Positions 4,693 to 58,464 of a stretch of DNA of 64,000 nucleotides are shown here, one piece after another. Positions within the stretch are counted from its first letter, which is position 1; each line of letters opens with the position of its first letter. Origin of the DNA: Lentinula raphanica. Taxonomy: Eukaryota; Basidiomycota; Agaricomycetes; Agaricales; Omphalotaceae. The DNA lies in NCBI GenBank assembly GCA_027919835.1, contig JANVFP010000003.1, positions 744,001 to 808,000 of the forward strand, given 5' to 3'. The notes beneath the pieces were generated by a model, which was given only the letters and a program-made list of their open reading frames with translations, searched no databases and had not been told where the DNA came from. A program made the position numbers and the translations under genes.

Positions 4693-5159
4693 ATGCCCTC
4701 TATAGCGAATCCCAGGAATGAAGATACGAATTCTCAAGTCCTGATGCACGACATGCTCGAAATGATACGCGACATGCGTGGTCTTCTGCGCGAAGGTCAC
4801 AAGGAACACGGAGAAAGCGAGACACTCAAGGCTGCTCCTCTTACTGGCAGTGGACTGCCTAGCCACGAGGATGAACGAGTGACAGAGAAAGACTCCGTCC
4901 AAGTGGCAGAAGAAAATAGACCTGATAGGTCAACAAAGCCCACTATACCTAAGCGCTTCGGCATGAAGAAAGAGCACATTCAACGTACGAATCCCGTAGC
5001 AGGTGAGGTATCGTATTGCTTGCCCGAAATTAGATATCAGCGCTGAACCTCGAGTCCGATTCCGAAAGCAAACTATAATTATTGTCAAAAGTATCCAGAA
5101 GACCGCCAGTATTACGAGCACGATTCAGAAGCACGGGTATGGTGGGTGTATCTTGATGA
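4693..5159 (+). pseudogene. 5' part of DUF6535-type gene, cut by transposon insertion
   Basis: Starts MPSIANPRNEDTNSQVLMHDML and matches the first exon of the intact copy at 28636 nearly residue for residue (QVLMHDM, RPDRSTKPTIPKRFG, KKEHIQRTNP). The first exon is 4693-5007 with a good donor GTATCG; the second begins at 5092 (YPEDRQYYEHD, then ARVWWVYLD). The sequence stops matching the paralogue exactly at 5159, where CACTGCGG of the inserted element begins. The last three bases, TGA, are repeated at 26266-26268. The rest of the gene resumes at 26269. The family is a basidiomycete-restricted membrane protein of unknown role. As it stands this half cannot encode the membrane domain. Confidence 0.9.
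5157..5159. repeat. Left target-site duplication TGA
   Basis: The three bases before the left end of the element are TGA; the same three bases follow the right end at 26266-26268. The uninterrupted paralogue has a single TGA at the equivalent place (in CTTGATGAGGC near 29107-29114). A 3-bp duplication is the CACTA (EnSpm) hallmark. Confidence 0.88.
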
Positions 5160-5630
5160 CACTGCGGAGGGGCCCGTATTTGACCTAGGAGAAACCTGAG
5201 GCGAAACCCTAAGAGAAATAGTAAAAATGGCGTCTGTTTTGCGCTTGGAGAAACTATAAATTTAGCATGAGCAGAATATAATGAGAAACTGATATTTTCC
5301 CCACCTTTATGGAGAGTGAGAAAGAGAAAAAGGTTTCAAATGATTGAGGCTGCCTGAACAGGATGAATCTGACGCGAGATACAGATGCTTTGGCTTGTGG
5401 GAATATCTTCCCAATTCATTCTATTTCTCACAGGATATTTATTATTTATTTCGGCCGAGAAAGGAAATGGGCGCTCAGTGCCCGCTCAGTGCCCGCTCAG
5501 TGCTCGCTCAGTGCCCGCTGAGAGGGCGATGATTAGCCACTCGGTGTACACTCAGAGACGCTGATCGTACATTCTGAGCCCTTGCATCTCACAATCACCT
5601 CCCACCCATCTCCCAGTCATGGGGCAGTGA
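5160..5630 (+). repeat. Left terminal inverted repeat
   Basis: Matches the reverse complement of 26265-25800. The first 17 bases, CACTGCGGAGGGGCCCG, are identical, then about 94% identity by eye with a handful of substitutions, one block of differences near 5286-5294, and one 11-bp unit difference in the subterminal repeat. Similarity fades near 5630, about 180 bp before the stop codon of the first internal gene. Confidence 0.9.
5472..5526 (+). repeat. Subterminal 11-bp tandem repeats (left)
   Basis: Four tandem copies of CGCTCAGTGCC (third copy ends CT) followed by a degenerate fifth copy. The core CAGTG is also the inner end of the terminal CACTG in reverse. Short subterminal repeats of this kind are the binding sites of the accessory TnpA protein in plant CACTA elements; that role here is inference. 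Confidence 0.8.
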
Positions 5631-5810
5631 ATTCTCGTTCATTGAACATAAAATGTTGTCTACATACTGAGTGTAGATTATACGATACATATGATACCTT
5701 GTAATCGACGATCAACTTGCATCTGCAAGTTACACAGACTAATCATGCAACAGGTAAGCTAGCAAAATGAACCAGTCAGAGAACGCCTTTCGGGTAAGAA
5801 TAGAAGCATC

Positions 5811-6893
5811 TTACTGGGGAATCGGCACACTTTGTGGAGAAAACTTGTAATTGCCATCCTGCTCCAATCTTGTGTGGTACTCTGGCCGAAAATACGAAGA
5901 AGGAAGCTCGGGAGGCGGTACGCGCACAGAGCGATCCTCCGTATAGTGTCGTGGGAGGCGCTTCCTCCCTGGTTTTGTGAATACTAACTTCTCTCGATCT
6001 CGCGTTCCATCGACAAAAGCAAAGAGATCCCGAAACTCAGGGTGCCTGAAGTCAATGTCCTTCACAAATCGAACCCGAGGCGCGGCGTTATCATCATTCT
6101 CTTCTTCTGAAGTCCCTTGGATACCTAGATCGTTGATACAAAGCAACAGATCAGACCAGAAGGATACACCATCGGCATCTTGTTGCGCCCTGCAGACACC
6201 AATCATGGTGCTACAGATTTCGAGCCGTCTCTCAAGTTTCTATAAAAAAGGATGAGAGTGCAGTCAAACGATTGAAGCTGATATACTACATACCGTTTTC
6301 ATATCAGCATGAATCTTGCTCTTATGCTTTCTATCATCGTAAAGTGCCCTGGCTTGTTCTGCCCCCCTTTCTGTGCGCCGCTGCTCGATCTCAGCCAATA
6401 TACGATAGATACGCTCTTTGACCAGGGTGGTCCACCATTCAATGTCCGGATAAGTTGGATCCATACGACCTGCTCTTTCGCTGGCTTCCAGAGCCAGGAT
6501 TTTGATCAAGCATCGATTCCAAGCGGCTTTCAGCATCTCCGAAGCAGTCGCGTGAGATGTGTCTAGGGCAGATCCCGCCAACGAAGGACCATTGTGATCA
6601 GGATCTTGTTTGAAAAGAAGTAGCTGTTCGTTTGAGATGGGCTGCTGTGACACTGTCTCAGAGGCGCTGGTGATCCCGAGGACTTCGTGAATCAGTTTGC
6701 GAACAATCCTCTAAAAGAGTAGATGAATATTGTCTCAGCGTGGTGATATATATGAAAGAAACACCTACATTGGCCGACGTCCGCTGCCTCCGTGGCACAG
6801 TCTGAAAAACAATGTAAGAGTGTTGAATGACATTCAGTGTGGGCTTACCTCTTGGGATTGGCCGTCGCTGTCATTGGAATCTGAGTTGGTCAT
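5811..6893 (-). CDS. Left terminal-domain protein of the transposon (paralogue of the right-end gene)
   Basis: Four exons, 6893-6849, 6801-6769, 6710-6294 and 6239-5811, all with lengths divisible by three (phase-0 introns), give 307 residues. After a short Ser/Asp-rich start (MTNSDSNDSDGQSQE) comes a helical region and then a domain shared with the C-terminus of the protein ending at 25765. Shared blocks are LFxxDPxxxGPxL, WNRxLIxxLAxEA, RRLEIC/LRFEVC, a DFRHPxxR motif with VDxTR, and RxPPPxLPxSxFR. Both paralogues point outward and stop close to their terminal repeats. I recall the fold only as a large Agaricomycete-specific family of hypothetical proteins (often with a GMSxDE motif, here in the right copy). 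A role as end-binding accessory factor is a guess from position. Confidence 0.8.
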
Positions 6894-7130
6894 CGCATAC
6901 GAATGGTGGTAGTGCTCGAAGTTGCAAAGAGACCAGAAGTAAACAAGTACACACACTAGTAACTTGTTCTGCTGCTTCGATCACCCGGCGGTGACTGACA
7001 ACTGTTGCAAGAGAACGGGTATGTATAGCCAGCAACATGATTCTTAACATACAACATACAACATTATACAGATCTACGCTATAACAAGAGTCAAAGGAAA
7101 TTTTTCGAATCCAGAGCACACAAGGGTCGA
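6894..7130. other. Short intergenic spacer inside the transposon
   Basis: About 240 bp between two minus-strand genes; it must contain the promoter of the 5811-6893 gene. No distinctive element was recognised. Confidence 0.4.
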
Positions 7131-7722
7131 TCATTCGACAGAGATGGAGGGCGGGAAGTCATCGGCGGTCCTCAGAGTCGGTGCCAGACGGTGTGCGAGT
7201 CTACAAAAATGTCAAGCAATGTTTGTGTGTCATCGGAAGGCAGATACGTACCGTCGAACTGCAATTTTTGCCACCTTTTCTTCGAGTCTACCCCTCATGT
7301 TACGGACATCTACCACCTTGCCGCAGGCGACAACGAGTACGTCTCCTTCCATATCCTCATTCGCCCAGTTGAGAATCGATTGATTGACAGGCAAGTCGTC
7401 GTGTCGCCGGAAGAAGACACGGAACTTATACTTCTTCCTGCGGTGAGTAATCGAAACGATCAGGTCGTGTACTTTAGAATCAATCGTGTCTCCAGTGAGC
7501 TCCTCGTCTGCATCGACATATCTCTGTCCTTTGAGACGAACTGGGTCTTCACGATAGAAAACCGAGATTTTCTCCGATGTCAGACCATCTGCCGGAAACA
7601 TGAGGGCTCGGATAGATTTTTTGATAACCTATGAGCAAAACATTGAGTGAGTGTGCAATCAATTCCATTGTCGGTTGACTTACCGTTTTACTACGAGGAC
7701 AGGGGACTTGATGCTTTCCCAT
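7131..7722 (-). CDS. Small basic protein of the transposon, unknown function
   Basis: Three exons (7722-7684, 7628-7252, 7200-7131) give 161 residues starting MGKHQVPCPRSKT. Features are a basic stretch SITHRRKKYKFRVFFRRHDD in the middle and a hydrophobic strand followed by Gly-Lys and an NMRGR motif (DVLVVACGKVVDVRNMRGR), then a basic helix (KIAVRRLAHRL). No known domain was recognised; length and composition would suit a nucleic-acid-binding accessory protein, but that is inference. It is on the same strand as its two neighbours, 0.24 kb upstream of the terminal-domain gene. Confidence 0.65.
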
Positions 7723-8152
7723 GGCTGATACTTCTTGACAAGAATGCGGGCAACTGCTGGAGTGGGATGTTACAAAGAGAACACGGGCGACTGCTGAAGC
7801 AAGGCGGATTACAAACAGAAGACACGAAGAGGAGCGGACGACTGCTGGACTGTTGCAAAGAGTAGGCGGGCGACAAGAAGAGACAGTGGGCGATGGCTGG
7901 AAAGAACGATATCTCTTGGGCTTTTATATGCTACCATGATGCTCCTCCGAGTCTCCTTTGAACTGACTCTCCTTTGTTGAACAAATATAATCCTTTCTTT
8001 TCTTTCAAACCAAAGGCGGAACGTTGCAGAATGATCTCATTCCTTGAAAGGCCCTTTGTCTTTAAGCATTGATGTAGATACATAGCCCTCGTCGGTGTAA
8101 ACTTGAATCATACATATTTTGTGCTAGGGAGTCAATACACGTGTTAGAGCAA
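7723..8152. repeat. Intergenic region with imperfect tandem repeats (about 7745-7900)
   Basis: Units of roughly 50-57 bp sharing the core GGGCGACTGCTG / GGGCAACTGCTG followed by a TTACAAA or TTGCAAAGAG segment occur about three times upstream of the small basic gene. The repeats are inside the transposon and could be protein-binding sites or slippage products. The remainder to 8152 shows nothing recognisable. Confidence 0.45.
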
Positions 8153-9899
8153 CTAATTAACTACAATTGCATCATTGAGCAGGTTCTTCAACGTTAGATG
8201 GATGTCCGAGATCGCACGACGCCAGTCATCCCCTGTAGGCCCTTCTCTGTCATCTTCGAGTGCCATTCCCCACCATTTGATGCAAGCGACAATGCTGAGC
8301 CACCCGTTTTTCCCGCCAATGTTGAGCGAAGTCGATTTCCTTCCTTTTCCCGACACCTTCTCTAACGAGGAAGACTTGAGGCTGGTCCACCAAACCATGA
8401 ACGATTGACTGAAACGATCCAGCTCCTCCTTCTTGAGATTTGGCTCACTCCCTGCTCTTTCATAGCGACAACCAGCGATCCAACGAGTAAGCTCCTTGGG
8501 GCGATCCTTGGCCGGCAGTCCTTTAGGCGAAGATGACCAGTCCTTGGCACCTTCGAACGCGATGTAATCACGAACCAAAGCAAGATATTGCTCACTCAAG
8601 TCCACGTTGACGTACTTGAAGGCTGCCGGAAACCACGAAGACGCGTTCTTTGAACGTAAAGCATCCTCTGGATAGGCAATCAACTTGGAGGAATTAATAA
8701 TAGATCATGTACGATTCAATAAGCTGGATACCTTGGTTTTAGGACCAGCAACCACTTCCTCGGGTTGAGCCAGAGTGGATCGATCAGGCGCGACCTCCAC
8801 TTTTGAAGTCAAGTAGCTCGCCGCTTGCTCTTCCTGCGAATCAACATGAGAGGATGAGTCTCAATGTGTACAAGACATGAGCCGAGAACACGAACGTGGG
8901 TTTCTGTTATCGCAATGTTCTTCGTATTCTCCAACGTCAAAGGTCGAACGCCTCCAAGATCATTGGGAATGCTCGTGCTACCTTCTGCCGACTCGGATAC
9001 GCCAAATTCGTCTTGCATCGGTAACGCATCCCTGGCCTGGGCAAACGATTGGAAATGAGCACACAGAGAATGTAAGAAACACTAACCTGTTGTGGCCCTT
9101 CGACGTTTAGCATCTCGGGTTGAATTCTCGTGCTACCTTTTGCCGACTCGGATACGCCAAATTCGTCTTGCATCGGTAACGCATTCCTGGCCTAGGCAAA
9201 CGATTGGAAATGAGCACACAGAGAATGTAAGAAACACTAACGTGTTGTGGCCCTTCGACGTTTAGCATCTCAGGTTGTATTTGATTACCGTCAGCGACAC
9301 ATTCACTTTCTCCATGAGACTAAGATAAGGCATGATCAACAAGTGCCGCGCTTCGATTGAGAATGGCTATCCTAACCTTGCTTCCAGACGATGCCACATC
9401 CGTTTTCATGATCTCCTGGGCTTCGCGTAACTGAGCCTCTAATTCTGCAACTCGAGCGAGCAGCATCTCTGCCTTGACCTCTGCCTTGTCTTTGTCTTGT
9501 GTGACCTCCGAAGCCGTACGTTGAAGTGCCTTGAGCTGGACCTGCGATTGCGTGTATTGACGCTGTAGCTTCGCCGCCTTGAGCTCAGCTCCGTTCTTGT
9601 CCTTGAACAACTGTGTTTTGTCATTTTCAAGACTCTGGAGTCGCTGAGATTCGGCATTCTGAATGATGAATCTCTCATCTAAATGAGGTCTTAAGTATGA
9701 AAGAGATGATACTCACCATCAGTTCGTCCATTTCAACTTCAGCATCCTTGAGTTGTTGTTGCATTTCTTCAACTTGTCGAGAGAGTTGAGCTATACGGCG
9801 TCCCTTCTACTTAAGCCTCATCAGAGATTGGACTAAGAGGAGCTGAGCGTTACGTACGGCGACAACAGTGGCTAGACTAGGTGCCCTTCTGAGAGACAT
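8153..9899 (-). CDS. Coiled-coil protein with Trp-rich C-terminal domain (transposon accessory)
   Basis: Eight exons (9899-9858, 9806-9717, 9658-9377, 9319-9242, 9191-9087, 9036-8896, 8833-8732, 8683-8153), every one a multiple of three, give 456 residues. Residues 15-140 form a coiled coil (heptads such as RQVEEMQQQLKDAEVEMDEL, LLARVAELEAQLREAQEIM). Two adjacent exons encode near-identical MQDEFGVSESA(K/E)GST repeats, an exon-intron tandem duplication. The last 170 residues are a compact domain with DYIAFEGAKDW, RPKELTRWI, MVWWTSL and CIKWWGMALE. I recall this pattern as a very abundant Agaricomycete-specific family without known function. The start is close to the divergent transposase gene (412 bp), so the two may share a promoter. 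Confidence 0.8.
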
Positions 9900-10311
9900 G
9901 GTGGAGCAAAAGAAAGAGGTGTTGAGTGGCTAAAAAAACGACGTGAATGCGAATGTGTTGATCCATAGAACAAAGGGAATCATCGGACCTCACTCAAAGT
10001 TAGTGTAATCAAGGTCCGTAGTCCTTCGCAGTTCGTCGTCCCGCATCCCGAGCAGTTCTCATCTCTTGTCTTCATCGTGTGCTCCTGGGTCTTGATGAGT
10101 GTAAGTGCAGTACGACTCGTAGAAGTGCTGGAGCGCGTCTAGATTATCTCAGCCTTCAGGATTATCTCCTTGAGAGATAACAGATTAGATATAGTTCGAT
10201 TAGATTTGAGATAAGTAGTAGATATCGATAAGATTCATTCGGTTGACGATGGTCGACTTGTAACTTGTTCTTGAACGTTGAACTTTCAGTCTCGTTGAAT
10301 GTAACATCAAT
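9900..10311. promoter_or_regulatory. Probable bidirectional promoter between coiled-coil gene and transposase
   Basis: A 412-bp region separates two divergent start codons. It is rich in GATTAG/GAGATA/GATATC words around 10140-10230. No clear TATA box was identified. Shared control of the two genes is inference from the arrangement. Confidence 0.45.
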
Positions 10312-13300
10312 ATGAGTGCATTCTCGAAGCTACTTGCTCGATCTCTGAAAGAGGATGCTCCTCTTCAAATTCCGACATCGCATACTTCAAGCTCTGTTTC
10401 CCATCCGGATCCGAAGTCAGATTCCGTATCCAAGTATCGAAGACTTCTACAGGCTCAAGGTAGTTATTGCGAGGCCATCATTTTTTCGTTTTGTTCATCA
10501 TCTTCTAGCCTCTCCTCCACCCAACTATGACTTGAATGTTATGGCGACTACAATGCTAAATCCGCGCAATGATCTACGCTCTGAGCCTTCTCTCCCTGAT
10601 GATTCTTCGATATTCGATGAGCTCACATCCGCCTTGAGTAAACAAGCTGTTAGTAGAATGAGTATCCCTCTTGTGTTTTGAAGTACTAATTCATGGACAT
10701 CATACTCTTCTTAGATCACAGACAGCATCAACGAATCTCCTCCAGTTGAAGGCGTCGCAGGGTCTCTAGAACAGATACTCAAACCCGATAAAGATGGTTT
10801 CATCCATCCTTTTGGGAATCCCAAGACCACGAATTTCGCTTCGACTAGGGAAATGCTCGATGCATCTCAGCTCAAGAGTAACCTTAACAGCTGTATCACT
10901 CGCTTGGAGCAGCTCAAGGGCCACGAAGATGAGAAGTTCATCCGATCAGAATTGGGAGATGTGGAAGCCATCATCGAGAGCGCCGGGGAAAGATCGCGCC
11001 TATTCCGACGCGACGCAGTCTTGGCCTTGCGGGAGGAGATCGATGTCATTCTTCATACGCTCAGTGAATCTATCATCAGCTGGCGCCATGAATTTCCAGA
11101 CAATTCTCCTCTCAAAATTGATAACAGTCAGTCGTTTCTCATCTTGATCTTTATCTACATTCTCAAGGTTGGCCATAGAGAAAGCATTCATCGATCCAGC
11201 CGCCAAGCGACACACTCCAACATTACTTGCCTATTGCCTAGCCCTCACCAACCGCGTTTTCGAAGGAGCTGCTAAACGTGGTAGCTCTTTTATGCTCAAG
11301 GCTTTAAAGATCTTTGGCTACTCGCTTACTCTGCTCAACGAAGGACCAAACCTAGAACAGCAGAGAGCGCTAGCGGACATCCCGGAAACAATCGATACCG
11401 TAGAAGATCACTTCAACTTGAATATAGTCAGTATTCCCTACGCTGTTTGTCCCACTTGCAGCTGTACCTTCGAACCCTCATACCCAAACAACTCGACCAC
11501 GCCTCACTATCCTGATCTCTGTAACTTTCGTGCGGCTTCAGAGTCCGAGCCTTGTGGAACCTCACTCCTCAAATACAACCGACCCATCAAAACCTTTCAC
11601 TACTATCCATTTTCTGATTGGTTTGGTCGCTTTCTTGCGCTTCCCGGCATTCAGGAGATTGGTGAAACTTTTTGTGAGGAGGTTACACAGAATTTACACC
11701 CACCCGCAGACAAACGAGACGCGCGAGACGGGACTCTCATTCGACAACTCCAATCCGCTGATGGATCATCCTTTATTGCAGATCGCGGCAACGAGGGGCG
11801 GTGGCTTTTCGTCCTGCACGCTGATTCATTCAACGTGGAAGGGAATCGGATTCGGGGTCGCTCCAGTTCTACCGGGGTCATGGCCATGAAATGTCTGAAT
11901 CTTCCTATTTCCATGCGCAACGACCCAGCTTATGTGTATGTTCCGGGTTTAATACAAGGTCCTAATGAACCGAACGCCAAAGAGGCTGCTCATCGCCACT
12001 TCCTCCGACCTTTAATCACAGAATTGGAAACTGCGTACAATTGAGGTTTTGCTCTATATCAAACTCATAGATCATTCAGTCTTGGGGAAGCCGCACCGCC
12101 ATATCAACAAGTGTTCCGCGCGATCCTAGTAGCAGTTCTCATGGATCTCAAGGCTGCACGTCCCTGGTGTGGTCTTTTGGATGTCACCTCTCATATCTTT
12201 TGCTTTGTATGTTGCTGTTGGCACAAAGCACACCTCTGTCGAACAGATTTTGAAAACTGGAAGCCCGTCGATGATGAATTCCTTAGAAAGGGTTCCGAAC
12301 TTTGGAGGGATGTTAAGACCACAGATGAACGTAAGTCCATCGAATCACTGTACGGGACTCGGTACTCCGAATTCTGGCGTCTACCCTATTGGAAGCCATC
12401 TCGTATGGTGGCCGTCGAACCCATGCATACAATCTTCCTCATTCTCGAGCAGCGATTCTTTCGTGATGCACTTGGCCTTGATGATCCCCAGAGCAAAAGA
12501 GGTCTGATGAAAAAAACGAAGGGCGCATCAATGATCGCTTTCCATTATGACTTCACACCCCCGCCGCATCTCTCTTTGATCAATTCCGCATCAGACGATA
12601 TAGATGCAAGAGACGCTACTGATCACCTTGCTTGCGTTGAATGGAATCATCTCCAACCGGAACTTCAAGAATATCGACATCAACGCATTTTGCATCTGAA
12701 AAGGATCATTGTTGACGATGATCGGGCAATCGAGGATACTCAATTAATCCACGACGAGCTTTCTGGCAGTGCGGGCGACATCATTGGAAAGAAGGATCGT
12801 TTGATCGCATGGCTTAAGGGGCGGAAATGGGTCGCATTAGCATTTGTGTGCAATGACCTTCATGTTTTCTCACTCCGAGATTCTTCAAAAAACATCGACA
12901 CACAGTCCGCAGTTGCATTAAGGGACATCACCAAGAAGGATATGGCGTTGCTGCTGGTTGAATGGGTATGTGACCTTTTGCTGCACACATCATACAATCG
13001 CTAACACGGAAAATCTAGCGCCTCGAATTGATACACGATCAAGGCATTTTTGATTGGCCATTCTTCACACCCCGTAATATCCCTCCTCCAAATGTCCCCT
13101 GGGCTTCCAGTTCTCATCCTCTGTCAATCACTCGCGGTCCTTCCCGTATCTGTATATTCACACCGGAAGAACGTCTGCTCAACATGGACAATCTTGTCAA
13201 GATATTCAGTCGTCATTCTGCGTACGGTGTTGGACACATTCATCGGACACTTCAGCAACCCCTGATCGACAACGAACAGGGTCTGCGAACTCTCCAACAA

Positions 13301-14787
13301 GCTCTCAACCGTAGAACCGAAGCGGCATTGAAATTTGTCTGCATTGATGTTGGATGTCTACCTGGAGGAAGAATTACCAAACAGGACTTAATCGATGAAT
13401 TGATTGCATGGGTGAGTCTTATACGCTGATCGTAATCATCAACTTGACTCAATCAGCTACAGCGGAAGACCAAACCACTGGAAGCAAAGGAATTCATTCA
13501 TATAGACTCAGTGAAGCTCCTTGAAAGAGTCCAAGAAGTTGTGCGCCAGGTCATCACACCCGCGTGGTCATCTAGACCCCCGCCAGATATCGGCTTACCA
13601 AAAGCAGGTACCCTGAAGGCTGACCATTGGCGAACTCTATTCACAATTCACCTTCCTCTTGCCTTATTGAGTTTGTGGAAAGAAGAATCGCCTTTAGCTG
13701 CTGCTGATGCCGCACAGATGACCTCTGTCCTCGAGACCGGGATGGCTTTGAGTTGTGCTTCTATTGTCATGATCAAGAATACTCTGACACTTCAACGTCG
13801 GGATCTATTTCGGAATTTACTCCGTCGCCATGTTCTTGGTTTACAGCAAAACTTTCCTGGCTTTATTTTGCCCACTCACCACCTGGCGTTTCATTTATAC
13901 GACTTCATGGACTTGCTGAGCGTTGTCCGGGAGTTTTGGAATTTCGCGTTCGAAGGCTTCATTGGGAAAATCCAGAGAACACCCACGAACCATGTCATCG
14001 GTGAGTCGATCTGCTCTGTGTTCCAACTCTGCACCAGTGGTTGATCCAGTTTTATAGGCCAGTACGAATATACTATCTTACATGCACATGCTACAGGCGC
14101 CTCTTTCCGACAATGGCTTTTGCGACCCGATTGCCCTCCTCTGTTGAAGTACTGCCGAATCCTCCTTGACAAAGCCTATGGTTACGTCAAACGCGTAGAT
14201 CCTACCGCTAACAACAATGACGAAGCCAACGAAGATGCAGAGGTCAACGTTGAAACGGTGCGAGATCAACCGACTTCGGAGTTACGTCGCCACGTTCTGC
14301 GTACTTCCCCACCAAGCGAACTTGTGCGGACCGTCGGAACATATGATATCGAGTGTTTTTCTCGGATATCTGCTCCTCGAGGTGACTACACAATTGCAAC
14401 AAATAAAACTGCATCCGGCGGCAATAGCTTCGTGTGCTACAGACCCTCGAGTTCAAGCGCTAACGAAGAATGGTGTGCGGGCCAAATTCAACACATCTTC
14501 AAACGCAGCGGCGCTATGTTCGCAGCTATCAAACGGAGCAAGGTCGCAGTGCTCGATTCTCCCGACCCTTTTGCCGCATTTTGGAAAGAAGGATTTGAAT
14601 CAAAACTCGTCTCTCCTGCTTTCTCAAAGAAGCTCGATATTGTTAGCATCGAGCGTATCATTGGGCACTCGGCAAGGTGGAACATCTCATCGGAGCTTAC
14701 TGTTGTATTGAATTTAAGCCGGGTACGTGACAATATTCAAGTTTTTTGGTTCTTTATGCTCAATAGTATTTGTTTGTGAAGGATTGA
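10312..14787 (+). CDS. CACTA-type (Tnp2-like) transposase with one in-frame TGA
   Basis: Eight exons: 10312-10459, 10509-10648, 10715-11126, 11179-12965, 13019-13411, 13457-14000, 14058-14722, 14767-14787; about 1,370 codons. Family features: a zinc-ribbon-like region CPTCSCTF...CGTSLLK; FIADRGNEGRWLFVLHADSFN; YVPGLIQGPNEPNAKEAAHRHFLRPL; a Cys/His cluster in DVTSHIFCFVCCCWHKAHLCRTDFENW; then GTRYSEFWRLPYWKPSR and a PMHTIFL block; these are typical of fungal Tnp2-like CACTA transposases. The C-terminal part has the LKADHWRTLFTIHLPLAL block. A TGA at 12042-12044 interrupts the conserved stretch after RPLITELETAYN; relatives would have Arg, so CGA to TGA is likely. The alternative is a 36-nt intron 12035-12070 (GTACAA...CATAG), in frame but very short. 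Confidence 0.88.
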
Positions 14788-15079: not shown

Positions 15080-16505
15080 TCAAGCGACCCGAGAGAACCG
15101 GTATAGTTCAAAGAGTAAGAGTCCAATAATGAAGCAGTTTCTGATGCGATAGAAAAGAGACCATAACGTAGTGCGAGAGAGTTGGAAGCCAATCAATATT
15201 TGATCTGTCGAAGTAGTCTTCGTTGTAGGGACAGGATCGGTTTTGGGCCTAGCATTGAAATTCCACTTGCGTGCCTTGCGATAGAGTATTACATCGCATG
15301 GCCGTTGAGAAGCGGACCCTGCGATAGCTAACAAGTAATACTTGTCTGTAGTATAAGCCTGTACAACGATTGAGAAAACAAAAATATTTTACATGAGAAA
15401 ACAGCACTCACTGTAACTTGTTGAACTAAACCTCCTCGAGGATAATCCAGAATCTGCACCTTTTTCCCAGTGGCTCGGTCATATAGCAGAGCATAGCCGC
15501 GATCAGTCCCACCAGCGAGCTTATTTCCGTCCTCGACAAACACAGCGCGTTTGGGAAAGAGAACCGTCGGTGGTTTCCCCTCAAAGGTACGAACATGAGC
15601 GAGGTCGTTCAAGCTGAATAGATTGAAATTATCTCCAGTCCAAGCCACAAAGCTTTCTGTATCGGGATCGAGACAAACAGAACCCCTAGTAGATCATGAG
15701 TAAAGTAAGTCATTGTGGTGATACTGACATACATGACATCTGGGCCATAATTCCTCTGAGATATTACGTCGCCCGTCGAGGAATTAAGCTGGATTCTGAC
15801 TGAATTGTGAGAACTCGAAATATGGAAGCCAAAGCGGAATGGACGAACATTGTCCCCCCTGTCATAGCAAATACAAGAAGATGCTTGCGAGAGAATAGAA
15901 CAGCTCGCGGAACAATGCTATCTGCTAGGGATACAGAGAAAATCTGACTAAATTCACCGGAGTCAGAGAGCGACCACACATTGACGCGCCCGTCGATAGT
16001 AGCAAAAACTATCCGTCCACTTCGTCCATTGTGAACCCTTGTTTCGCGCACTTCCAACGAGGATATTTGCTTGTTGACGTTCTCAGTACGGGCTCTGGCG
16101 ACTGGGAGGAATTCCTGACACGACAAAATGTATGAGAACTATGAAGAACAAAGAGAAGATAGAGCTCACCAATTGTTGATCCTTGCAACCCCAGACTAGA
16201 ACGTCACCACGCATCGAACCTAGCAGAAGGATATGTTGTTGATCTTTTTCGAAAAACAGCCAGCACGATGCAGAGAAGGCATATTTTGGATCTCGCGACG
16301 CGAACGGAAATGCGGGCAACCTAACTAAGGCAGACGTCGAGACTTCCCAAACATGAACACCGGTGTAACCTGACATCAAAAGATACATGAAGAGAGGTGC
16401 ATCGATTGAGTGGAAATTATTCACCGGTGGCGGCAATGAACTTCCCATCGACAGAGTAACATAGTGATAGTATCGCATCACCATGGCCTCGTAGTGTGGC
16501 GGCAT
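15080..16505 (-). CDS. WD40-like protein with hydrophobic C-terminal tail (transposon accessory)
   Basis: Five exons, 16505-16170, 16114-15849, 15795-15733, 15685-15412 and 15358-15080, give 405 residues. Beta-propeller-like repeats can be read: MSGYTGVHVWEVSTSALVRL, LLLGSMRGDVLVWGCKD, SGRIVFATIDGRVNVWSLSD, ESFVAWTGDNFNLFSLND, LAGGTDRGYALLYDRATGKK. The last 35 residues contain a hydrophobic segment (FIIGLLLFELYRF) that could be a tail anchor. Splice phases are mixed, unlike the coiled-coil genes of the same element. I recall similar WD40 proteins as multi-copy families in agaric genomes; their link to transposons is not something I can cite. Function unknown. Confidence 0.8.
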
Positions 16506-16801
16506 GCTGATATGAGATTGCGGAACCCATAGGGAATCACGAACGACAGGGATAGTAGAGGCACGAGATGGTGTTCACAGTCCGAGAGAGAAAGGAAGCA
16601 AGAAATCGACCGAGTTCCAGAGAACAAAGCAAGGAGGAGCATGTTGATTAGCCGATGCCATTGCCAAAACAAGCAAAGATAAGCCGGTGAGCTGATTACG
16701 TGGTCGTGTGAGCGCCGGCGCTCCTCAAGCTCAACGATCCACTTTCACCTGCTCCGAATTCAAACACACAACCTCACCGAATGCCATGTGTCGGCTGACT
16801 T
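16506..16801. promoter_or_regulatory. Divergent spacer between WD40 and Ser/Asp-rich genes
   Basis: About 300 bp between divergent starts. It should carry both promoters; no specific motif was recognised. Confidence 0.35.
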
Positions 16802-18256
16802 ATGTGCTGGTGGACAACTAGAGCATTGAGAGAACGAGATGAACACAACGAAGTACTGCTCAAAAAGGTTCGTCTTCTATCCAAATCTCTTTGTGCCTTT
16901 GACCAACGCCCATAAGCTCCGCCTTTGAATCCTCAACACATAACATTCTTTGAACAGGTCTTTATGATGAAGACAATGGATGCGAGCGATACACTCATAG
17001 AAAAGGCCGCAAATTCCAAGAACCGCCTCCCATTCTCACCCACGAACTACCACTATGAAAGCAAACCACCCATCTCACCTCGAACACCCGGTCTGTGTCG
17101 ATCATACTCCTCTCTCAAACTCGATGCCGCTGTTGAACTCCATCGATCATGAGTATCTACATCCAGCCGTTGGTCCTCATCGAACGCCACGCTCGACCCG
17201 TCGTACATCTCCCTACGGCTCTCCTGTCCACTCTCCTCCGTCCACTCCTTCCGAACGCCTCAGTCCTTCCCCCCGTACGCAAGGGTCAGACTCTGACAGG
17301 AGCTATGTGCCTCCCTCTGCACGTTATACTGTCCGTGCCGGCAGAGTTCTTGCATATGATAGCGACGATGATCTCCCAGTTCAATCTCCTGGTCACAGGA
17401 GCGTTCACACCAACTCTCCTCTCCAGCATCAAGCCAAATCTAGTACCGGCATTCCACCAACACTTCCTTCCCTTGCTCGCCATGCCATCACTCATACCAC
17501 TCGAATCAATCCAGCCTCAGCGTCTTCTCCTCGTACTCATCCTGTCTATGCATACGACAGCGATGATTCTCAGCGGCGATCAAAACAGACTGTTTCTTTC
17601 GCTCCTGCCAATATTCCCGGCAAGGGAGTCAGTCTTGGAGGGGGAAGCAGCTCTGCTCAGGCAGCTACCAGCCATTACACATCGACGCAGAATGCAACCC
17701 TCGAACCAAAGAAGAAGATCCCTCTTTTTTTGGATTCCGATTCTGACGACGACGACGACGACAAGATTCCTAAGCCTTTAGGTGAAGCTGGTAGGCCTGG
17801 TCGCGGTGGCTATAACTTACGTGACGCTTTGAACTGGCCGGAGGAACGGTATGGCAAAGTAAAAGTGCGTTCATTGCATTGATTTCGCCCCGATTTTCGG
17901 CTGATATGATATACGTGTAGAGGTACATCAACGGTATTGTTCAAGACAAACTGGAGTGCACGTTACCTTATACTGAGCAGCCCCTGCTGGCTTTGAAACA
18001 AGTGCGGGATCTGGTATGTGGATGCTGCTTCGCTCCTTTGACAAACTTGGACTGAACTGATGAAACTCAGGCGACTGCCAAATATCCTTTCCTCACTCAA
18101 TACCGTGACAATTGGCCTATTGATGACTTCATTCGATCTCAGCTGAAATACCGTAAAGCTGCCCTTCAGAAGGAGGCCGTAGAGACCGAGCTTGCTGATA
18201 TTAGAAATCGGGCGACGAAGAGTGGCAAACGCTCGGGAAGAAAGGGCGAGGCGTAG
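16802..18256 (+). CDS. Ser/Pro/Asp-rich protein with conserved C-terminal helical domain (transposon accessory)
   Basis: Five exons read as 16802-16867, 16958-17090, 17167-17864, 17921-18013 and 18071-18256. The N-terminal two thirds are low complexity, with two YDSDD acidic boxes (VLAYDSDDDLPVQ, YAYDSDDSQRR), SP/TP clusters and a DSDSDDDDDDK run. The last 100 residues are ordered: YNLRDALNWPEERYGKVKRY, then YINGIVQDKLECTLPYTEQPL, YPFLTQYRDNWPIDDFI and a basic helical tail (KRSGRKGEA). The second intron (76 nt, GTCTGT donor) is needed to connect the two frames; the first exon and its Met are the least certain part. No known domain. The ordered tail with NYNLR and a DNWP motif looks like an agaric-specific family. 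Confidence 0.7.
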
Positions 18257-19764: not shown

Positions 19765-22700
19765 ATGAGTGAACCGTCCAGGAAGCGGAAGGCAGGAGTT
19801 TTCTCCGCCAATTTCAGTTCCAGCAGCAGTCTGGGCTCTGAAGAGGCGGATGATGACGACGCCTACATGAGTGCTGAGGATGAAGGTGAAAAGGTGATTG
19901 TTTTATTTCGAATGTTGTCTGTTTTCTGGTCACCGATGATTGACTGCACAGACTCCTCGCTTGAGGTCACGGTCACCCGAAATCGACACTCGACATACAA
20001 AGGTCAAGGTTCACAATGTCTTTGGTAATGAAGAACGTGGCAAGCTCGAAGCTCGTTGCGTAGAACTTGAGGCCAGCATCAACGAACACAAACGGACAAT
20101 TGCTCTTCTGAACAAACTTAAAGAGCAGGATCCTACTCAGCTGGAGGACGAAGCATCTGATGTATGTTGTACTCCCTACATATTCTTGATTATGATGCTC
20201 ATGTTTGCAAAAGATCGAAGCGGAACTAGAGTTGGTGAAGAAGTCCAATGAAGCTCTCTTGAAAACCAATGCCGTCTTCAATGTAGAGCGACGTGAACTT
20301 CATGTAAGTGTGTTGCAATTAAAGTGAATGAATAAAGCTCACCGTACGCAGTCCAAGATTTCTTCTCTCCAAGCTCAGTTGTCCGATCAGGGAAGTTTGA
20401 GTGACAAAAGCTCAAAGGTGAGCTTATTTTGTCTTCTGAGATGGGACGATGACAAGAACTCTCAACAGGAAGAGGGGGAGAAACTCGCTGACTTGACGGT
20501 AATCCAGTGCCGCTTTCACGTTGCGTCGGGTCAACTGAGGTCCGAATCAGAGTCAGATTGAATGTTTGAAGAATGAGCAGAATCTCATGCGTCAAGAATT
20601 AGAGTCGCAGATTAGTGGCTTGCAATCGGAAAAGAACCAACTTACAGTGAGTCGGATGTGTTCACTAGTCTCCCTCTCATCTTATACAATTACAGGCCAC
20701 GATGGATGAACTCCATCGGCAACGAGCTGCTGATCAGGTTGGTCCGCAGCGGTCATCGATTGTTGACCGTTCTCTGATTCATGGATACGGCTATGCTCAG
20801 GAAGAACTGGGCCGGCTTCGAGACGTAAAAAAACCACAGAAAACGGGATTCAAGAACAACAAGGATGAACCTCAAGAATCAAAGACCGAATTCCAAAAGA
20901 AAGCTCTTGCTCTTCTTCAGGCAGAGACAGATTCGAGGCGCCATTCGGTAAGTTCATAGTTCTTGCTTGAAGTTGGATCCACTCAATATCATGGCATGGT
21001 CTAGGATGAAAACAAGTCGCTTCGTAAAGCCAACGCTTCACTGAGAGCTGAAAAGGAAGAACTCACCAAAGATAAACTGAATCTCGAGAGGGAAAGGCGT
21101 CGTCTTGAAACCACTGTAGAGGTATGTGAAACTCATTCACCATACCCAATGTGGCTGAATTTGTTCAGGAACAACGCACCAAAAAAGTCAGTCTCAGTGT
21201 CAAGCACGATGAAGTCCTAGAGAAGATGAGGTGCCGATTGCGAGAATTGAACGTAGGTCACATTTGTCATTATTCAGACAATAACACTCATAGGGTGACT
21301 ACAGGGAGAGAAAGATTTACTGTCCACACAATTACAACAAGTACAGAAGAACCTAGGTGAACTCAAACAAGTAGAGGTTGGTCAATCGACTGTGTTTCGA
21401 GGCCAAGTCTCGCTTAACCTTGTACAACAGGAGAAGCACGTCGAGGAAGCAGCTACTGCCAAGGCAAGTGGATCGCCGCAAAAGATATTGTTGTCGTTCT
21501 CAAATGCACAACATAGGCCACGGTGTCGGAGCTGTACAACCAGTTGCACTCTCTGACCACCGATAACGAAAAGCTAGTGTTGGAGCGTGACTCTCTAGAG
21601 ACCAAGGGAAAGGAGTTGCAAAATATGCACGACGAGTTAGATGCTGAGTGTGCGCACCTTCGCACGGAATTACAAGAGATGAATCAAATGAATGTAAGGA
21701 CTGCTTTGACTGCTTGGATGTTTCTCTGAACCTTCCCACTAGAACGACATGGAAACCACCAATGAACAATATAGCAAGTCTCAAGAACGAATCGCGCAGC
21801 TACTTGAGCAACGCGCTTCTTTGCGAGCAGAGCTAGAAACCACCAACAAACGATATGACAAGTCTCAAGAACAACTTGTACAGCAAAAAGAGCAATACGC
21901 GTCTTTGCAAGCAGAGCTAGAAACCACCAACGAACAATATGACAAATCTCAAGAAGAACTTGCACAGCAAACCGCGCGATACTCCTCTTCGCAAGCAGAG
22001 CTAGCAAATTCAATTGCGCGCCACGAAGAGCTTGAGAAACAGATTGTTGGATTGACAACTGAGCGAGATGGGTTCAAAGATGACGTTTCGAGAAAGGATC
22101 GGGCATATGAAAAACTCAAGGTTCAATCCTCTAAACTAACTGCAGAAAGGTTGATCTCACTAGCTCATTGCAGGAAGAAATGGCACAGTTGACTTCCCAG
22201 CATGAATCGGAGCTGAGTCAACGTGATCAGACCTCCCACACTCAGCTCGATTCTCTCAAAGCCCAGTTGGCCGATAAGGAAAAAGAGTACAAGACTTTGA
22301 AGGTAAGATGGAATTCTCAGAGAGGGCGCAAGCATGCTGATGTTCTTCCCAGGATGAAAATGGAACGTTGCGGGAAAAAAGAGACTCGCTTGAGACAGAA
22401 CATAATTCGCTCAGCAAAGAATGTACTCGCCTCAAAGCGAAATTAGAAAGTGGGAAGATTGAAGGACAAGAAGAGCTCAAGAATCATAACGCCAAACTAT
22501 CTGCTGAGCTCGAGAAACTTACCGATCAATTGGCGACAAAGGATCGAAGAGTCGACAAGCTTGAGGTTGGGATCTACAAACTCACCGCGAAATGGGCCAA
22601 TCTCACTTCCTTTGTAGAATGACATTAATGCTCTCAAAACTGAACATAACACCAAACTGAACGAACAACGTCTGAAGATGCAAACTACCATCAACACTCT

Positions 22701-25700
22701 AGAAGATCGGTTGGAGGATAAGCAGAAAGACTATGATGAGATAATGGTAAGGATGACAGCATTGTAGAATCATCGGGTGCTGACACGCTTTCGAGGCCAA
22801 AAAACAGGAGTACTTGAAAGCAGGAGTCCTCTTTAGAGATGAACGTGACTCACTCCTCCAGACTAAAGCCAATCTCGAAGGGGAAATACAAACGTTGAAA
22901 ATACAAGTGTCAACAGCCAATGTAAGTGATCATTTGTTTCATTGCCTGGTCCTGCGTGAATGAAATTTCATACACAGAACAACATGCAAGCTTTGAATGG
23001 AGAGATTTCGGGACTGAAGAGCCAAAGAGATGTATGTCTTCTCTATCATTGCCCGGGACGTTGTCTGATTGCCCAATCACAGTCTCTTCAAACTCGGGAC
23101 AGTCAACTCAGTAATCAATTGAAGAAACGCGAGAACGAATTGAAGGAACGCGACAACGAATTGAAGGAACGCGACAACGAATTGAAGGAACGCAAGAACG
23201 AATTGAAGGAATGCGAGAACAAATTGAAGGAACGCGAGAACGAATTGAAGGAACAAGGGAATGAACTGAAAGTCAGTTCACTCGTTCTCAGACGCTCTCA
23301 TATAGCTAATTGTTTCCTGTTTAGCATGAGAGGGAAGCACATGCAAAACTCAAGGTGAACGAACTATCCAACTGCTTTAACCCTCATTGTATCAACGTTT
23401 TCCAGAGTGAAGAAGGTCCAAGCCAGTCTGAACGCAAGAAACGCCTTGATAAGTATAAGGTATGCTCGCGCTGATTGGGTATGCCTTTGCGCTGACTAGC
23501 CTGCTTTATAGGCCAAGGTAGAGGCATTGCGAACGGAACTGCGGGTTGCCAACGAAGGAAAAGAAGACTTCGATATCAGATTGAAGCTGGCTGAAAATCG
23601 TCAAAATATGGATCAGGAAACCATTAACACGTACCTAAAGACTATTGAGTCATTGAGGGTGAGTCCTAATCGAGCACCGTCTGTATGTTTACTGACCAAT
23701 TCCAGGGTCAACAAAGGATTTCCATGGGGGATATTGCCCGGTTGCAGCAAGAGATTGAAGCATTGAAGGTATCTAACATCTCTCATGGTATAACCCTACC
23801 ATCTAATACATCTGATGATAGGCTCAAGGATCCACTACGCCACAATCTACGTACATGGGGACAAGCATCACACCGACAACGGGAAACCCTTCTGTTAATT
23901 TTTTGACTACTAGAGGCTTGGGTGCGACATTGAGCCGAGCGCCTGTCGCCGCTGAACTAGAATTCGCACTAAAACATCGAAAAATGTATGAACTTGGGAT
24001 ACCTATTGTGAGTCCATTGATGTTGTCACTCAGAAGCGCACTCACCGCATCTTAGTCTCCAGCAAAGACCCCTCCGGCAACTCCGTCCAACAAGAATCCT
24101 CGCAAGCCATGGGATAATGACTCTGCTTCAAAATATGTAAGTACATTGACTGCTCTATGTATAAAGATGTCGTCCTGATTACGGTGTTAGGCAAAGAAGG
24201 CGCGACAGAGAGCTTCCAGTCACTCCAGTTTCTCCAGTGATGATGATGATGATGCGCAATCTGAACGAGATGACGATAGATCCAGGAGAAGGTCGAAAGA
24301 GGATAAGAAGGTGAGTTCCGGTAAAGTTAATCGACATGGATTTTCAGGTACTGATTTGTATCTTCAGCGTAAATCGTCCAAAGCCAGGGGAAAAGAACGA
24401 GCACGAACGCCTTCCTCCCCATCGTCCTCTTCTTCGTCTTCGTCTTCATCTTCGTCCTCTTCATCGTCGTCGTCATCCTCCTCTGACTCTGAAGATGAGG
24501 AGGATGACAGTTCAGACAGTAGTGACAGCGAGTCTTCTGATATCGAAGACAATGACTCCAGTGTGAGACGTAAATGGGCGAAATTGGCCACACATCGTAG
24601 TTACACTGCTGGACAGGTCCGAAGGAACATAAACGTATGCATCCCTTCTTATCTTTTATCACAACTAACACATGCTTTGGATTAGAAACTGGCCAGGGAC
24701 CTCATTCGCGTGGCTCTACGGACCAAGTGGAACTACGAGGCATTTGCTCGTGATGGAGTCTCACAAGAACGCCTTGACCTCTTCATGGCCGATCCAAAAC
24801 GGCATGGTCCCAAACTCCGCAACACTCGGTTGGATAAAACAGGCCATGACACGAAGACGATTCTCGATACGCCATGGAATCGAGCGTTGATACACCTACT
24901 AGCAGAGGAAGCTAAGAAGGTTGTCAGGAATTGTCAGGATGGTCGCTTTGGTCCGAAGGAGAAGGAGAAGAAGAAGAAGAAGAAGAAGAAGAAGAAGGAG
25001 GAGATACGTTGGGCAACGCTCTTCCGACAAAGGCTTTCGAAAATCGTGCGGGACGAGCTTAAATCACGGCCATTGGATGATCAGGAAACTCTCGAGCAGC
25101 GCATTCAACGTATATCCGATGCTCACCTATTGAAAAAGCAGAAGAGCAAGTATAACACGATCCGTCACGTTGTGCGTTGTCATTTGGACATAGTATTGGC
25201 TGCTCATACTGATTACACCTTCGTCTAGAAATATCGTCTCCGATTTGAGGTTTGTTCTATCATGGTCAAAGCCTCTCGGCAACGAAAGGATAGCAACGCA
25301 TTGAAGTTCTGGACGTATGGGCTGAACTGCCTTCACAAACTCAAGCACGAGGGTATGTCCGACGAAGAAGACGCGACCGTCACTCATATTGCTAATGGTG
25401 TCGAAACTCGGGAACAAGTTAGACACGTTCTGGCACCGGATTTCCGACATCCTGTTCTCAGACCGTATTTGGAACTTGTTGACCAGACTCGTGGGCTAGA
25501 AGCAATGATATTCAAGCAAACAGGTAGAGCCCGAATGCGCAGAATCCGTGTCGACAAGATCTCCCACCGGCCGCCACCTAAACGGCTTCCAGCATCTTTC
25601 TTTCGGGATGGATTTCTTGACAGTTTGATGGAACATGAGAAGGACGACCTTCGTATCAGTAAACGTGACTTTGTTCTCTATTCCTTCCCGGGCTATGATC

Positions 25701-25765
25701 CTCATCAGCCTCAGAGTCAACCTGTATCTAGCGGTCAGGCTGGACCCAGTAGTAGCGCCATGTAA
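19765..25765 (+). CDS. Giant coiled-coil protein with right terminal domain (transposon accessory, 29 exons)
   Basis: Joining 29 exons from Met 19765 gives about 1,508 residues. After MSEPSRKRK and an acidic SEEADDDD segment, residues about 45-1000 are almost uninterrupted coiled coil. This includes three 28-residue repeats starting (M)ETTNEQY in exon 21743-22120 and seven exact-length heptads of type ERDNELK at 23125-23271. Then come acidic/Ser runs (poly-Ser around 24420-24485) and a Lys run near 24968-25002. The C-terminal 340 residues (exons 24686-25171 and 25229-25765) are the domain shared with the protein at 5811-6893: LFMADPKRHGPKL, WNRALIHLLAEEA, HEGMSDEED, DFRHPVLRPYLELVDQTR, RPPPKRLPASFFRDGF. 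Every exon length is a multiple of three, and one intron uses a GC donor (21464). The stop lies about 30 bp before the right inverted repeat. Function unknown; by position it could be the TnpA-like partner of the transposase. Confidence 0.85.
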
Positions 25766-25799
25766 ATGTACCATTACCCTCATCGTTTGACTATGTCTT

Positions 25800-26265
25800 G
25801 TCCAATCAACTGCGTATGAGTGGGAGATGTGTGGGAAGTGATTGTGAGATGAGAGGGCTCGGAAAGGACGATTAACGTCACTGAGTGTGCACCGAGTGGC
25901 TGAACATCGCCCTCTGAGCGGGCACTGAGCGAGCACTGAGCGGGCACTGAGCGCCCATTTCCTTTCTCGGCCGAAATAAATAATAAATAGCGTGTGAGAA
26001 ATAAAATGAATTGGGAAGATATTCCCACAAGCCAAAGCATCTGTATCTCGCGTCAGATTCATCCTGTTCGGGCAGCCTCAATCATTTGAAACCTCTTTCT
26101 CTTTCTCACTCTCCATAAAGGTGGGGAAAACTTTAAATTCTCATTATGTTCTACTCATGCCAAATTTTTAGTTTCTCCAAGCACAAAACAGCGGCGATTT
26201 TTACTATTTCTCTTTGGGTTTCGCTTCAGGTTTCTCCTAGGTCAAATACGGGCCCCTCCGCAGTG
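25800..26265 (-). repeat. Right terminal inverted repeat
   Basis: Reverse complement of 5160-5630. It ends in CCGCAGTG followed by the TGA duplication. It differs from the left repeat by about 6% substitutions by eye and lacks one 11-bp subterminal unit. Confidence 0.9.
25910..25953 (-). repeat. Subterminal 11-bp tandem repeats (right)
   Basis: Three tandem units GGCACTGAGCG / AGCACTGAGCG plus a degenerate CCCTCTGAGCG, the inverted counterpart of the left array at 5472-5526, which has one more full unit. Confidence 0.8.
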
Positions 26266-26268
26266 TGA
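26266..26268. repeat. Right target-site duplication TGA
   Basis: TGA directly after the terminal CAGTG, identical to the TGA at 5157-5159. Confidence 0.88.
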
Positions 26269-58455: not shown

Positions 58456-58464
58456 AGCGGAAGG

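Follow-up and report, generated by a model that had tools for sequence, protein, structure and literature searches.

A probable giant multi-gene CACTA/EnSpm transposon in the mushroom Lentinula raphanica

A textbook CACTA transposon requires two proteins, a transposase plus a helper that binds DNA. Giant CACTA/EnSpm elements with several genes are in themselves already known from red algae, as two sources relate: those of Chondrus crispus measure 16-20 kb and hold 4-5 ORFs instead of 1-2 (Kojima et al. 2013, cited in PMC6431247), and red-algal EnSpm elements with multiple accessory genes are mentioned in PMC12477816. These giants share with the locus described here the CACTA superfamily, large size and multi-gene content, and differ in their algal host and in having 4-5 ORFs against about seven mushroom genes, a comparison of descriptions rather than of gene content. 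The 20.5-kb soybean CACTA element Tgmt*, as described in PMC2613891, is alike in size, in-gene insertion and subterminal repeats, but there a single large gene encodes both tnp2 and TNP1-type domains, with no separate gene set. In fungal TET-bearing EnSpm/Plavaka elements the extra gene is a TET/JBP dioxygenase, and the available sections of PMC12730594 describe no gene set like the present one; Pfam scans of 20 ORF pieces of our element, which also missed the transposase, found no TET/JBP dioxygenase. The same sections give Plavaka termini as TGT..ACA or CATCA..TGATG and target-site duplications of 7-8 bp for KDZ (Kyakuja-Dileera-Zisupton) elements (PMC12730594). Plavaka was ruled out since the termini of our elements differ, and KDZ by 3-bp duplications in six of six long elements. 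Our literature search, which ran outside subscription journals and Repbase, turned up no account of a giant CACTA element with multiple genes in any mushroom, and the portions of the Marasmius oreades literature available describe none.

The Starship giant transposons of Pezizomycotina are also large multi-gene fungal transposons; they carry a tyrosine-recombinase captain (DUF3435), are not known to have long CACTA-type inverted repeats and belong to a phylum other than the mushroom's. No DUF3435 captain was matched in the Pfam scans of the 20 ORF pieces, a kind of scan that may overlook fragments of spliced genes. Here we describe, from the shiitake relative L. raphanica, what is very probably a giant CACTA/EnSpm DNA transposon with many genes.

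Insertion into a DUF6535 gene

The window, which is the whole 64-kb stretch of DNA analysed, holds an element of 21,106 bp (5160-26265) between TGA at 5157-5159 and TGA at 26266-26268:

4465..5159, + strand: DUF6535-type host gene, 5′ part, cut by the element (start approximate)
5157..5159, no strand: left target-site duplication, TGA
5160..5620, + strand: left terminal inverted repeat (CACTGCGGAGGGGCCCG...), about 461 bp
25816..26265, - strand: right terminal inverted repeat
26266..26268, no strand: right target-site duplication, TGA
26266..27865, + strand: DUF6535-type host gene, 3′ part
28600..30794, + strand: DUF6535 paralogue, uninterrupted, with the empty site (single TGA, 29109-29111)

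The left flank (4878-5159) matches the paralogue at 28830-29111 (87%) and the right flank (26266-26359) at 29109-29202 (89%), and the two matches overlap by exactly three bases, 29109-29111, which read TGA. Pfam assigned PF20153 (DUF6535) to both the host gene (E 5.6e-46) and the paralogue (E 1.1e-47). Positions 5160-26265 are a single insertion event with a 3-bp duplication in a DUF6535 gene, the past insertion being shown by an empty site known from a paralogue within the same window. A reading of the sequence alone had proposed a 21.1-kb unit with defined ends in a DUF6535-type gene, which the TGA pair, the inverted ends and PF20153 in host and paralogue bear out, and an insertion rather than a rearrangement, with which the single TGA shared by the paralogue's matches to both flanks agrees. 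It had also described the empty site with one TGA; the site stands, but the paralogue lies about 2.8 kb past the right end and not 1.5 kb.

Inverted arms were found at 5159-5520/25905-26266 (93% identity) and further inward at 5483-5620/25816-25953 (89%). By gapped blastn the ends are 461 bp long and 90% identical, close to the inverted repeats of about 465 bp that had been read at both ends. An 11-bp subterminal tandem repeat, GCTCAGTG, is present in four units at the left end (~5473-5513) and in three at the right.

A second copy and the genes of the element

The search that the sequence-only reading had suggested, for a further copy with the same ends, gene set and a 3-bp duplication, yielded one on contig C19 (C19:165443-187281, 21.8 kb, target-site duplication TCT). 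In this copy B the same ends enclose the same genes with their order unchanged, so the outcome named beforehand as a refutation, ends that never bracket this gene set elsewhere, did not occur. Its colinear blocks are 64-86% identical to the window copy, and about 1.7 kb of extra sequence separates its two conserved G1 exons. Gene models were built from these two copies, with approximate exon borders:

5811..6955, - strand: G1, paralogous to the G7 C-terminal part; exons 5811-6239 and 6264-6710 conserved, 5′ exons only approximately placed
7131..8083, - strand: G2; conserved exon 7233-7628, ends approximate
8153..9899, - strand: G3 (with G4); N-terminal coiled-coil-like part 9320-9899, conserved C-terminal domain 8153-8704, predicted all-helical
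10312..14776, + strand: G5, putative Tnp2-type (CACTA) transposase, several exons
15080..16574, - strand: Ax, beta-propeller-like, ends approximate
17055..18256, + strand: G6; N-terminal part low-complexity (by eye), C-terminal part conserved
19765..25765, + strand: G7, very long, coiled-coil-like, with a Ser/Asp/Glu-rich stretch; inner exons approximate

The models, together with conservation in other elements, agree with the initial count of at least seven genes between the ends. G3 and G4 are probably a single gene, because the homologue P0100 unites both parts in one protein. G1 was found by a G7 query, and the C-terminal domain of G7 (24686-25765) is conserved and paralogous to G1. Ax gave a weak match, below cut-off, to the RSE1/DDB1 propeller; a 49-residue match is all that remains of it in copy B, and related places occur on C11, C17, C24, C28, C22, C53, C57 and others. 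The companion genes gave no confident Pfam match, with no match for G2 in the Pfam scan, and a structure search with the G3 domain listed 75 matches at E 10 or better and none at 0.001. Companion-gene structure models were weak, that of the G7 C-terminal domain being poor (mean pLDDT 55). Rfam at gathering scores returned nothing in the 64-kb window. Mushroom proteins of these kinds are annotated as 'hypothetical' and even as 'serine threonine protein kinase'.

The transposase ORFs gave no match in direct Pfam scans. Precomputed annotation places PF02992 (Transposase_21) in 28 of the 86 transposase homologues listed; among three long homologues scanned, P0007 (2.3e-5) and P0012 (5e-4) matched Transposase_21 below the curated cut-off and P0002 gave no match. 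Columns for D, D, CxxC and MH are invariant across 23 aligned transposase proteins, and a C-terminal H(3)H...E segment was read by eye within 13448-14041 of the window copy; H(3)H and E, likewise by eye, are also present in long homologues and missing in copy B. The features of a CACTA/EnSpm transposase (Tnp2-type DDE, CxxC, H(3-4)H) are indicated here by homology and motifs only, and the protein appears, from its distant homologues and motifs, to be a remote Tnp2 relative. The window copy carries an in-frame TGA at 12042-12044, and in copy B a 2.65-kb foldback lies at the place of the lost transposase C-terminus. With both transposase genes broken, neither copy looks autonomous today, and that in the window is probably no longer self-sufficient.

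Related elements and association of the genes

Four further elements are bracketed by ends of their own:

C28:550958-572834: related element, target-site duplication CTA
C11:592269-614754: related element, target-site duplication CTA
C24:20958-43508: related element, target-site duplication TGA
C17:277843-307924: related element, target-site duplication TTA

They measure 21.9-30.1 kb, have CACTA or CACCG termini, inverted repeats and 3-bp target-site duplications, and hold the gene kinds of the window element in a different order. C17 also contains a nested inverted-repeat element of about 4 kb. Each of the six bracketed elements retains every gene kind, though copy B has no more than a remnant of Ax. 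Three features by which CACTA/EnSpm elements are recognised were found: matching 3-bp duplications in all six long elements examined; CACTA/CACTG or, more broadly, CAC..GTG termini in inverted repeats (CACTG in the window copy and copy B, CACTACGCC in C11, C17 and C24, CACCGCG in C28); and subterminal short repeats, which besides the window copy occur at the ends of copy B and the left end of C17 as other 8-mers present three times.

Short relatives were also seen. The one on C2 is flanked by TGA and that on C15 by TGT if its right end is set at the outer CAGTG; the flanks of the C9 relative (ATA/TTA) do not match. On C9, a 6.9-kb pair of ends of the window-element type is accompanied by a 130-bp direct repeat (97.7%), and from its ends alone the pair resembles a small element interrupted by a further insertion. 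Some elements, about 545 bp long, share terminal and subterminal stretches only and are probably mobilised in trans.

At 11 of 39 transposase-like places, G3, G1/7, G2 and G6 all lie within 20 kb in shuffled order; none of 2000 random placements produced such a place. The 11 loci fall into four sequence groups of near relatives, some possibly being duplicate contigs: C3 (the contig of the window) with C19; C11, C17, C24 and C28; C22, C53 and C57; and C54 with C59. One or more of five partner kinds occurred within 20 kb at 24 of the 26 places with at least 42% identity and at one of the 13 with 35% or less. A transposase match lies within 25 kb of 12/15 matches for G2, 23/37 for G3, 30/44 for G1/7, 19/31 for G6 and 17/24 for Ax, and is absent from that range for 14/37 (G3), 14/44 (G1/7), 12/31 (G6) and 7/24 (Ax).

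The colinear copy and the four related bracketed elements support the proposal, made from the sequence, of a fungal giant CACTA moving as one unit; it needs correcting in that multi-gene giants are already in print from red algae and in the autonomy of the window copy and copy B.

Selection and the nature of the gene set

Between the window copy and copy B, dN/dS by NG86 was 0.03-0.25 in 15 of 15 conserved coding segments (0.22 and 0.25 in the conserved G1 exons), a set that samples little of the G7 coiled coil and nothing of Ax and in which per-segment values with dS above about 1.5 are saturated. YN00 gave values for nine of the 15 (0.09-0.35). In the transposase dS is 1.6-2.7, above the 0.7-2.0 of most other segments. 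Purifying selection has acted between the copies on the companion-gene parts that are conserved. Gene distances correlate (Mantel r 0.94 over 11 loci, 0.98 and 0.90 over 8 loci), and G3 and G7, the two companion genes tested, diverge in step with the transposase.

We propose a mushroom giant-CACTA lineage whose fixed set of about seven proteins, mostly orphan, would be an obligate transposition machine, so that size would reflect machinery and not cargo, a reading we hold to be evenly poised. Within the giant-CACTA explanation itself, the transposase would cut both ends and paste the 21-kb unit entire. Of the paralogues G1 and G7, either or both may bind the subterminal tandem repeats and aid pairing of the far-apart ends (the TNPA role); the G7 and G3 coiled coils may form a scaffold, and Ax, G2 and G6 might serve assembly, regulation or host interaction. 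An obligate machine would accord with a gene set that outlasts order shuffling and terminal-sequence change and co-evolves with the transposase.

A real contender, which we place just short of evenly poised, is that the transposase and a subset of the genes form the machine, the rest (e.g. Ax and G6) being accessory and acting against silencing or in host interaction like TET/JBP genes, which several kinds of fungal transposon (EnSpm, Plavaka and KDZ) carry (PMC12730594). It would fit the places with three of the five partner kinds within 20 kb (C10, C36, C25, C54:113270) and the transposase-like places C54:4884 and C59, near which Ax has no match, but all kinds persist in the six bracketed elements, if only as an Ax remnant in copy B. 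Far less credible is an ordinary CACTA transposon whose passengers are unrelated, captured host genes, much as in Pack-type elements. The gene number and size, beyond the usual two-gene element, and companion genes with no known transposition domain in Pfam scans would suit such cargo; against it stand the recurrence of the same gene kinds in shuffled order around 11 of 39 transposase-like places, the purifying selection on their conserved parts, G3 and G7 distances that track those of the transposase, and the location of more than half of each gene's matches within 25 kb of a transposase match. Within-genome controls reject host-gene cargo for the set as a whole, not gene by gene. Smaller elements piled by chance between two related solo ends are extremely improbable: relatives do hold nested elements (the copy B foldback, the inverted-repeat element in C17), but copy B has the same genes, order and ends at another site and other elements hold the same gene kinds between different ends, and we judge this reading already refuted because the second copy is colinear.

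In this probable giant CACTA of L. raphanica, the genes seem to move and evolve together as a unit, because further copies of the same kind exist elsewhere in the genome. The results suggest that a set of unnamed mushroom proteins are transposon genes, an origin that, if true, bears on the gene annotation of cultivated mushrooms. With about seven genes staying together in one family despite long divergence, the question why some DNA transposons grow giant becomes directly testable: a large element may need proteins that join ends 20 kb apart, an escape from silencing, or something else.

Insertion of copy A and a second copy in the genome

The window spans C3:744001-808000. Copy A, the giant CACTA element at window 5160-26265, is bounded by inverted repeats that start with CACTGCGGAGGGGCCCG, flanked on either side by TGA and 90% identical over 461 bp (93% over an ungapped 362 bp). 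The gene that it splits belongs to the DUF6535 family, and a DUF6535 paralogue at window 28.6-30.8 kb carries the matching sequence unbroken. Since the half-matches of the split gene overlap in this paralogue by exactly three bases, TGA, copy A arrived by insertion, with 3 bp of its target duplicated; the single-TGA empty site of the paralogue bears out the sequence-only reading, which had placed the insertion in a DUF6535-type gene with duplication of TGA. The two DUF6535 genes stand in tandem at window 26266-30794, with matched blocks 78-94% alike, and the transposon breaks the first. At window 58456-64000 a 1848-aa open frame, which runs past the window edge, resembles by eye a Gypsy-type polyprotein with zinc knuckle, protease, reverse transcriptase and RNase H.

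The same reading had proposed a giant CACTA moving as one unit, to be checked by searching the genome with both ends of A. This whole-genome DNA search (49.06 Mb, 75 contigs) returned a second, colinear copy, copy B, with ends at C19:165443 and C19:187281 (21,839 bp) and a different target-site duplication (TSD), TCT on either side. Colinear blocks of 64-86% DNA identity run across the length of the two copies. A search with the 23 end bases, allowing up to three mismatches, gave 19 matches in the genome, compared with 0 for the reversed pattern: both ends of A and of B, end pairs at C1, C2, C15 and C9, and seven single ends. The pairs at C1, C2 and C15 are each spaced about 545 bp apart and the C9 pair (C9:644858-651773) 6.9 kb. 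Among the short relatives read (C2, C15, C9 and a single end at C19), the C2 and C15 elements resemble A and B, with 68-88% identity, solely in their first ~40-100 bp and in 41-127 bp of subterminal sequence. The C2 element has TGA on both flanks and a last base that deviates from the consensus; the C15 element has the TSD TGT, provided that its right end is set at the outer CAGTG. Comparison of the bases flanking the C9 pair revealed no exact TSD match. A second insertion, marked by direct repeats of 130 bp, seems to have split the C9 element, which has A-type ends.

Giant EnSpm elements of up to 15.2 kb are described from Ectocarpus and multi-accessory EnSpm from red algae (PMC12477816), a 20.5-kb CACTA with a single large gene from soybean (PMC2613891), and from fungi both CACTA-like sequences (PMC1636069) and EnSpm with 3-bp TSDs (PMC12730594). 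No giant multi-gene CACTA in mushrooms was found in the literature searched.

Gene content of the element

Gene models from the two copies gave the left-to-right order G1 (-), G2 (-), G3 with the coiled-coil G4 (-), transposase (+), G6 (+) and G7 (+), with Ax (-), known as conserved from other elements, between the transposase and G6. G1 is paralogous to the C-terminal part of G7, and one lies near each element end. The main reading frames of A are kept in B with exceptions at G1, where about 1.7 kb of extra sequence separates two conserved exons, and at the transposase C-terminus and Ax. There, B has instead a 2.65-kb foldback (C19 ~174325-176976; a near-perfect palindrome, arms 95% complementary, 34% GC) and lacks both the C-terminal end of the transposase and the greater part of Ax.

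At least 86 transposase homologues were recovered from the best 7998 candidates scored, and 28 of the 86 listed carry Transposase_21 (PF02992) in precomputed annotation; hosts named among them include Dendrothele, Lentinula, Gymnopus, Schizophyllum, Antrodiella and Moniliophthora. Two aspartates, a CxxC and an MH are invariant in 23 aligned transposase proteins, and we infer that these residues are catalytic. An H(3)H and a final glutamate are named as marks of this transposase clade (PMC12730594); both are readable in A (within 13448-14041) and in long homologues, and B is without that part. In A, an in-frame TGA at 12042-12044, through which B reads, is possibly a sequencing error, being seen in one assembly. 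As they stand, neither A nor B seems able to make a full transposase. Elsewhere in the genome, related transposase frames are free of stops across the queried stretch.

None of 20 ORF pieces reached the cut-off in a Pfam scan; below it, Ax matched a beta-propeller (E 7.7e-4) and G7 generic coiled coils. P0089, a homologue of the G1/G7 domain, is annotated as PF26792.1 in precomputed data, so that G1 and G7 may be members of an already catalogued domain; a direct Pfam scan of P0089 did not return PF26792.1. The G3 domain was predicted to be all-helical (mean pLDDT 73), and a structure search of this model against solved structures gave no match; the G7 model was of poor quality. Homologues of the companion genes were scarce among 5.8 billion proteins: we found at least six homologues of the G1/G7 domain (one being copy B itself, two from Stygiomarasmius scandens) and at least nine of G3 (eight named, all Lentinula), both counts being lower bounds through the word and length limits of the protein search. 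The transposase homologue P0057 (79% identity across 27% of the B query) and the G3 homologue P0093 (83% identity to the window G3), both of Lentinula raphanica record EV361DRAFT, share a listed contig size of 9337, suggesting that another strain of this species holds one more diverged copy.

A wider family with other ends and gene order

Protein searches of the genome located at least 39 transposase-like places, 37 for G3, 44 for G1/G7, 15 for G2, 31 for G6 (from the first of two exon queries) and 24 for Ax, all lower bounds. At 11 of the 39 transposase places listed, G3, G1/G7, G2 and G6 all lie within 20 kb, and Ax is also present at nine of these loci; no such cluster arose in any of 2000 random placements along a single line as long as the genome. 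As an inner control, at least one partner accompanied 24 of the 26 transposase places with identity of 42% or more (two being pieces of one C25 gene) and 1 of the 13 with 35% or less. Within 25 kb of a transposase lie 12/15 G2, 23/37 G3, 30/44 G1/G7, 19/31 G6 and 17/24 Ax places. The 11 loci form four groups; those on C22, C53 and C57 are 98-99% alike and those on C54 and C59 99%, and duplicate or allelic contigs may thus be among them. Near-identical stretches on C24, C46 and C58 likewise point to recent copying or to duplicate/allelic contigs; the left end of C24, with its flank, reappears on C46 and C58, both of which stop ~340 bp into it.

A DNA search with the C17 left flank revealed inverted pairs around C11, C17, C24 and C28. 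Ends were set where two inverted copies start agreeing, and 100-bp end pieces were read. Together with A (C3) and B (C19), the ends of 6 of the 11 loci were examined (C3, C19, C11, C17, C24, C28), the others being C22, C53, C57, C54 and C59.

Elements with the second gene arrangement
C17:277843-307924, 30.1 kb, ends CACTACGCC, TSD TTA
C24:20958-43508, 22.6 kb, ends CACTACGCC, TSD TGA
C11:592269-614754, 22.5 kb, ends CACTACGCC, TSD CTA
C28:550958-572834, 21.9 kb, ends CACCGCGCC, TSD CTA

Their gene order, G7 (-), G1 (+), G2 (-), G3 (+), transposase (+), G6 (-), Ax (+), differs from that of A and B, while the head-to-head Ax-G6 pair is retained in both arrangements. The same set with another order and other ends indicates that the genes stay together through changes in their order and orientation and in the terminal sequence, as read from these loci.

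The C17 element contains an inverted-repeat element of another family (~4 kb, C17 ~301987-306024). The ~100-bp ends of that family recur as facing pairs, several 10.8-10.9 kb apart (C2:88968-99798, C48:82444-93269, C20:192862-203721), and distant G3-like matches at C2:96448 and C48:85442 fall inside two of them.

Selection, co-evolution and a possible mechanism

Between A and B, NG86 dN/dS was 0.03-0.25 in all 15 conserved coding segments, drawn from G1, G2, G3, G4, the transposase, G6 and G7 outside most of its coiled coil; of Ax, outside this comparison, B keeps merely a 49-residue match. YN00 gave 0.09-0.35 for the nine segments for which values were obtained. These low ratios indicate that the companion genes remained functional over much of the period that followed the split of A and B. 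The transposase (window 10312-14776) has a dS of 1.6-2.7, above most companion segments; saturation, biased codon use or an exchange of sequence among elements could account for this.

Mantel tests on the transposase, G3 and the G7 C-terminal domain revealed that their pairwise identities correlate strongly among loci: transposase-G3, r 0.94 (11 loci, p 0.0001), or 0.91 without C53 and C59 (9 loci, p 0.0005); transposase-G7, r 0.98 (8 loci, p 0.0018); and G3-G7, r 0.90 (8 loci, p 0.0011), the p values assuming exchangeable loci and hence leaning on group structure.

In the mechanism that we propose, the transposase would cut and paste the whole unit, aided by helper proteins that would bind subterminal tandem repeats. 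GCTCAGTG occurs four and three times subterminally at the ends of A, and other 8-mers are repeated in B and C17. Judging from anatomy, our guess is that G1 and G7 are the best candidates for such a putative repeat-binding helper, because they are paralogous and kept alongside the transposase.
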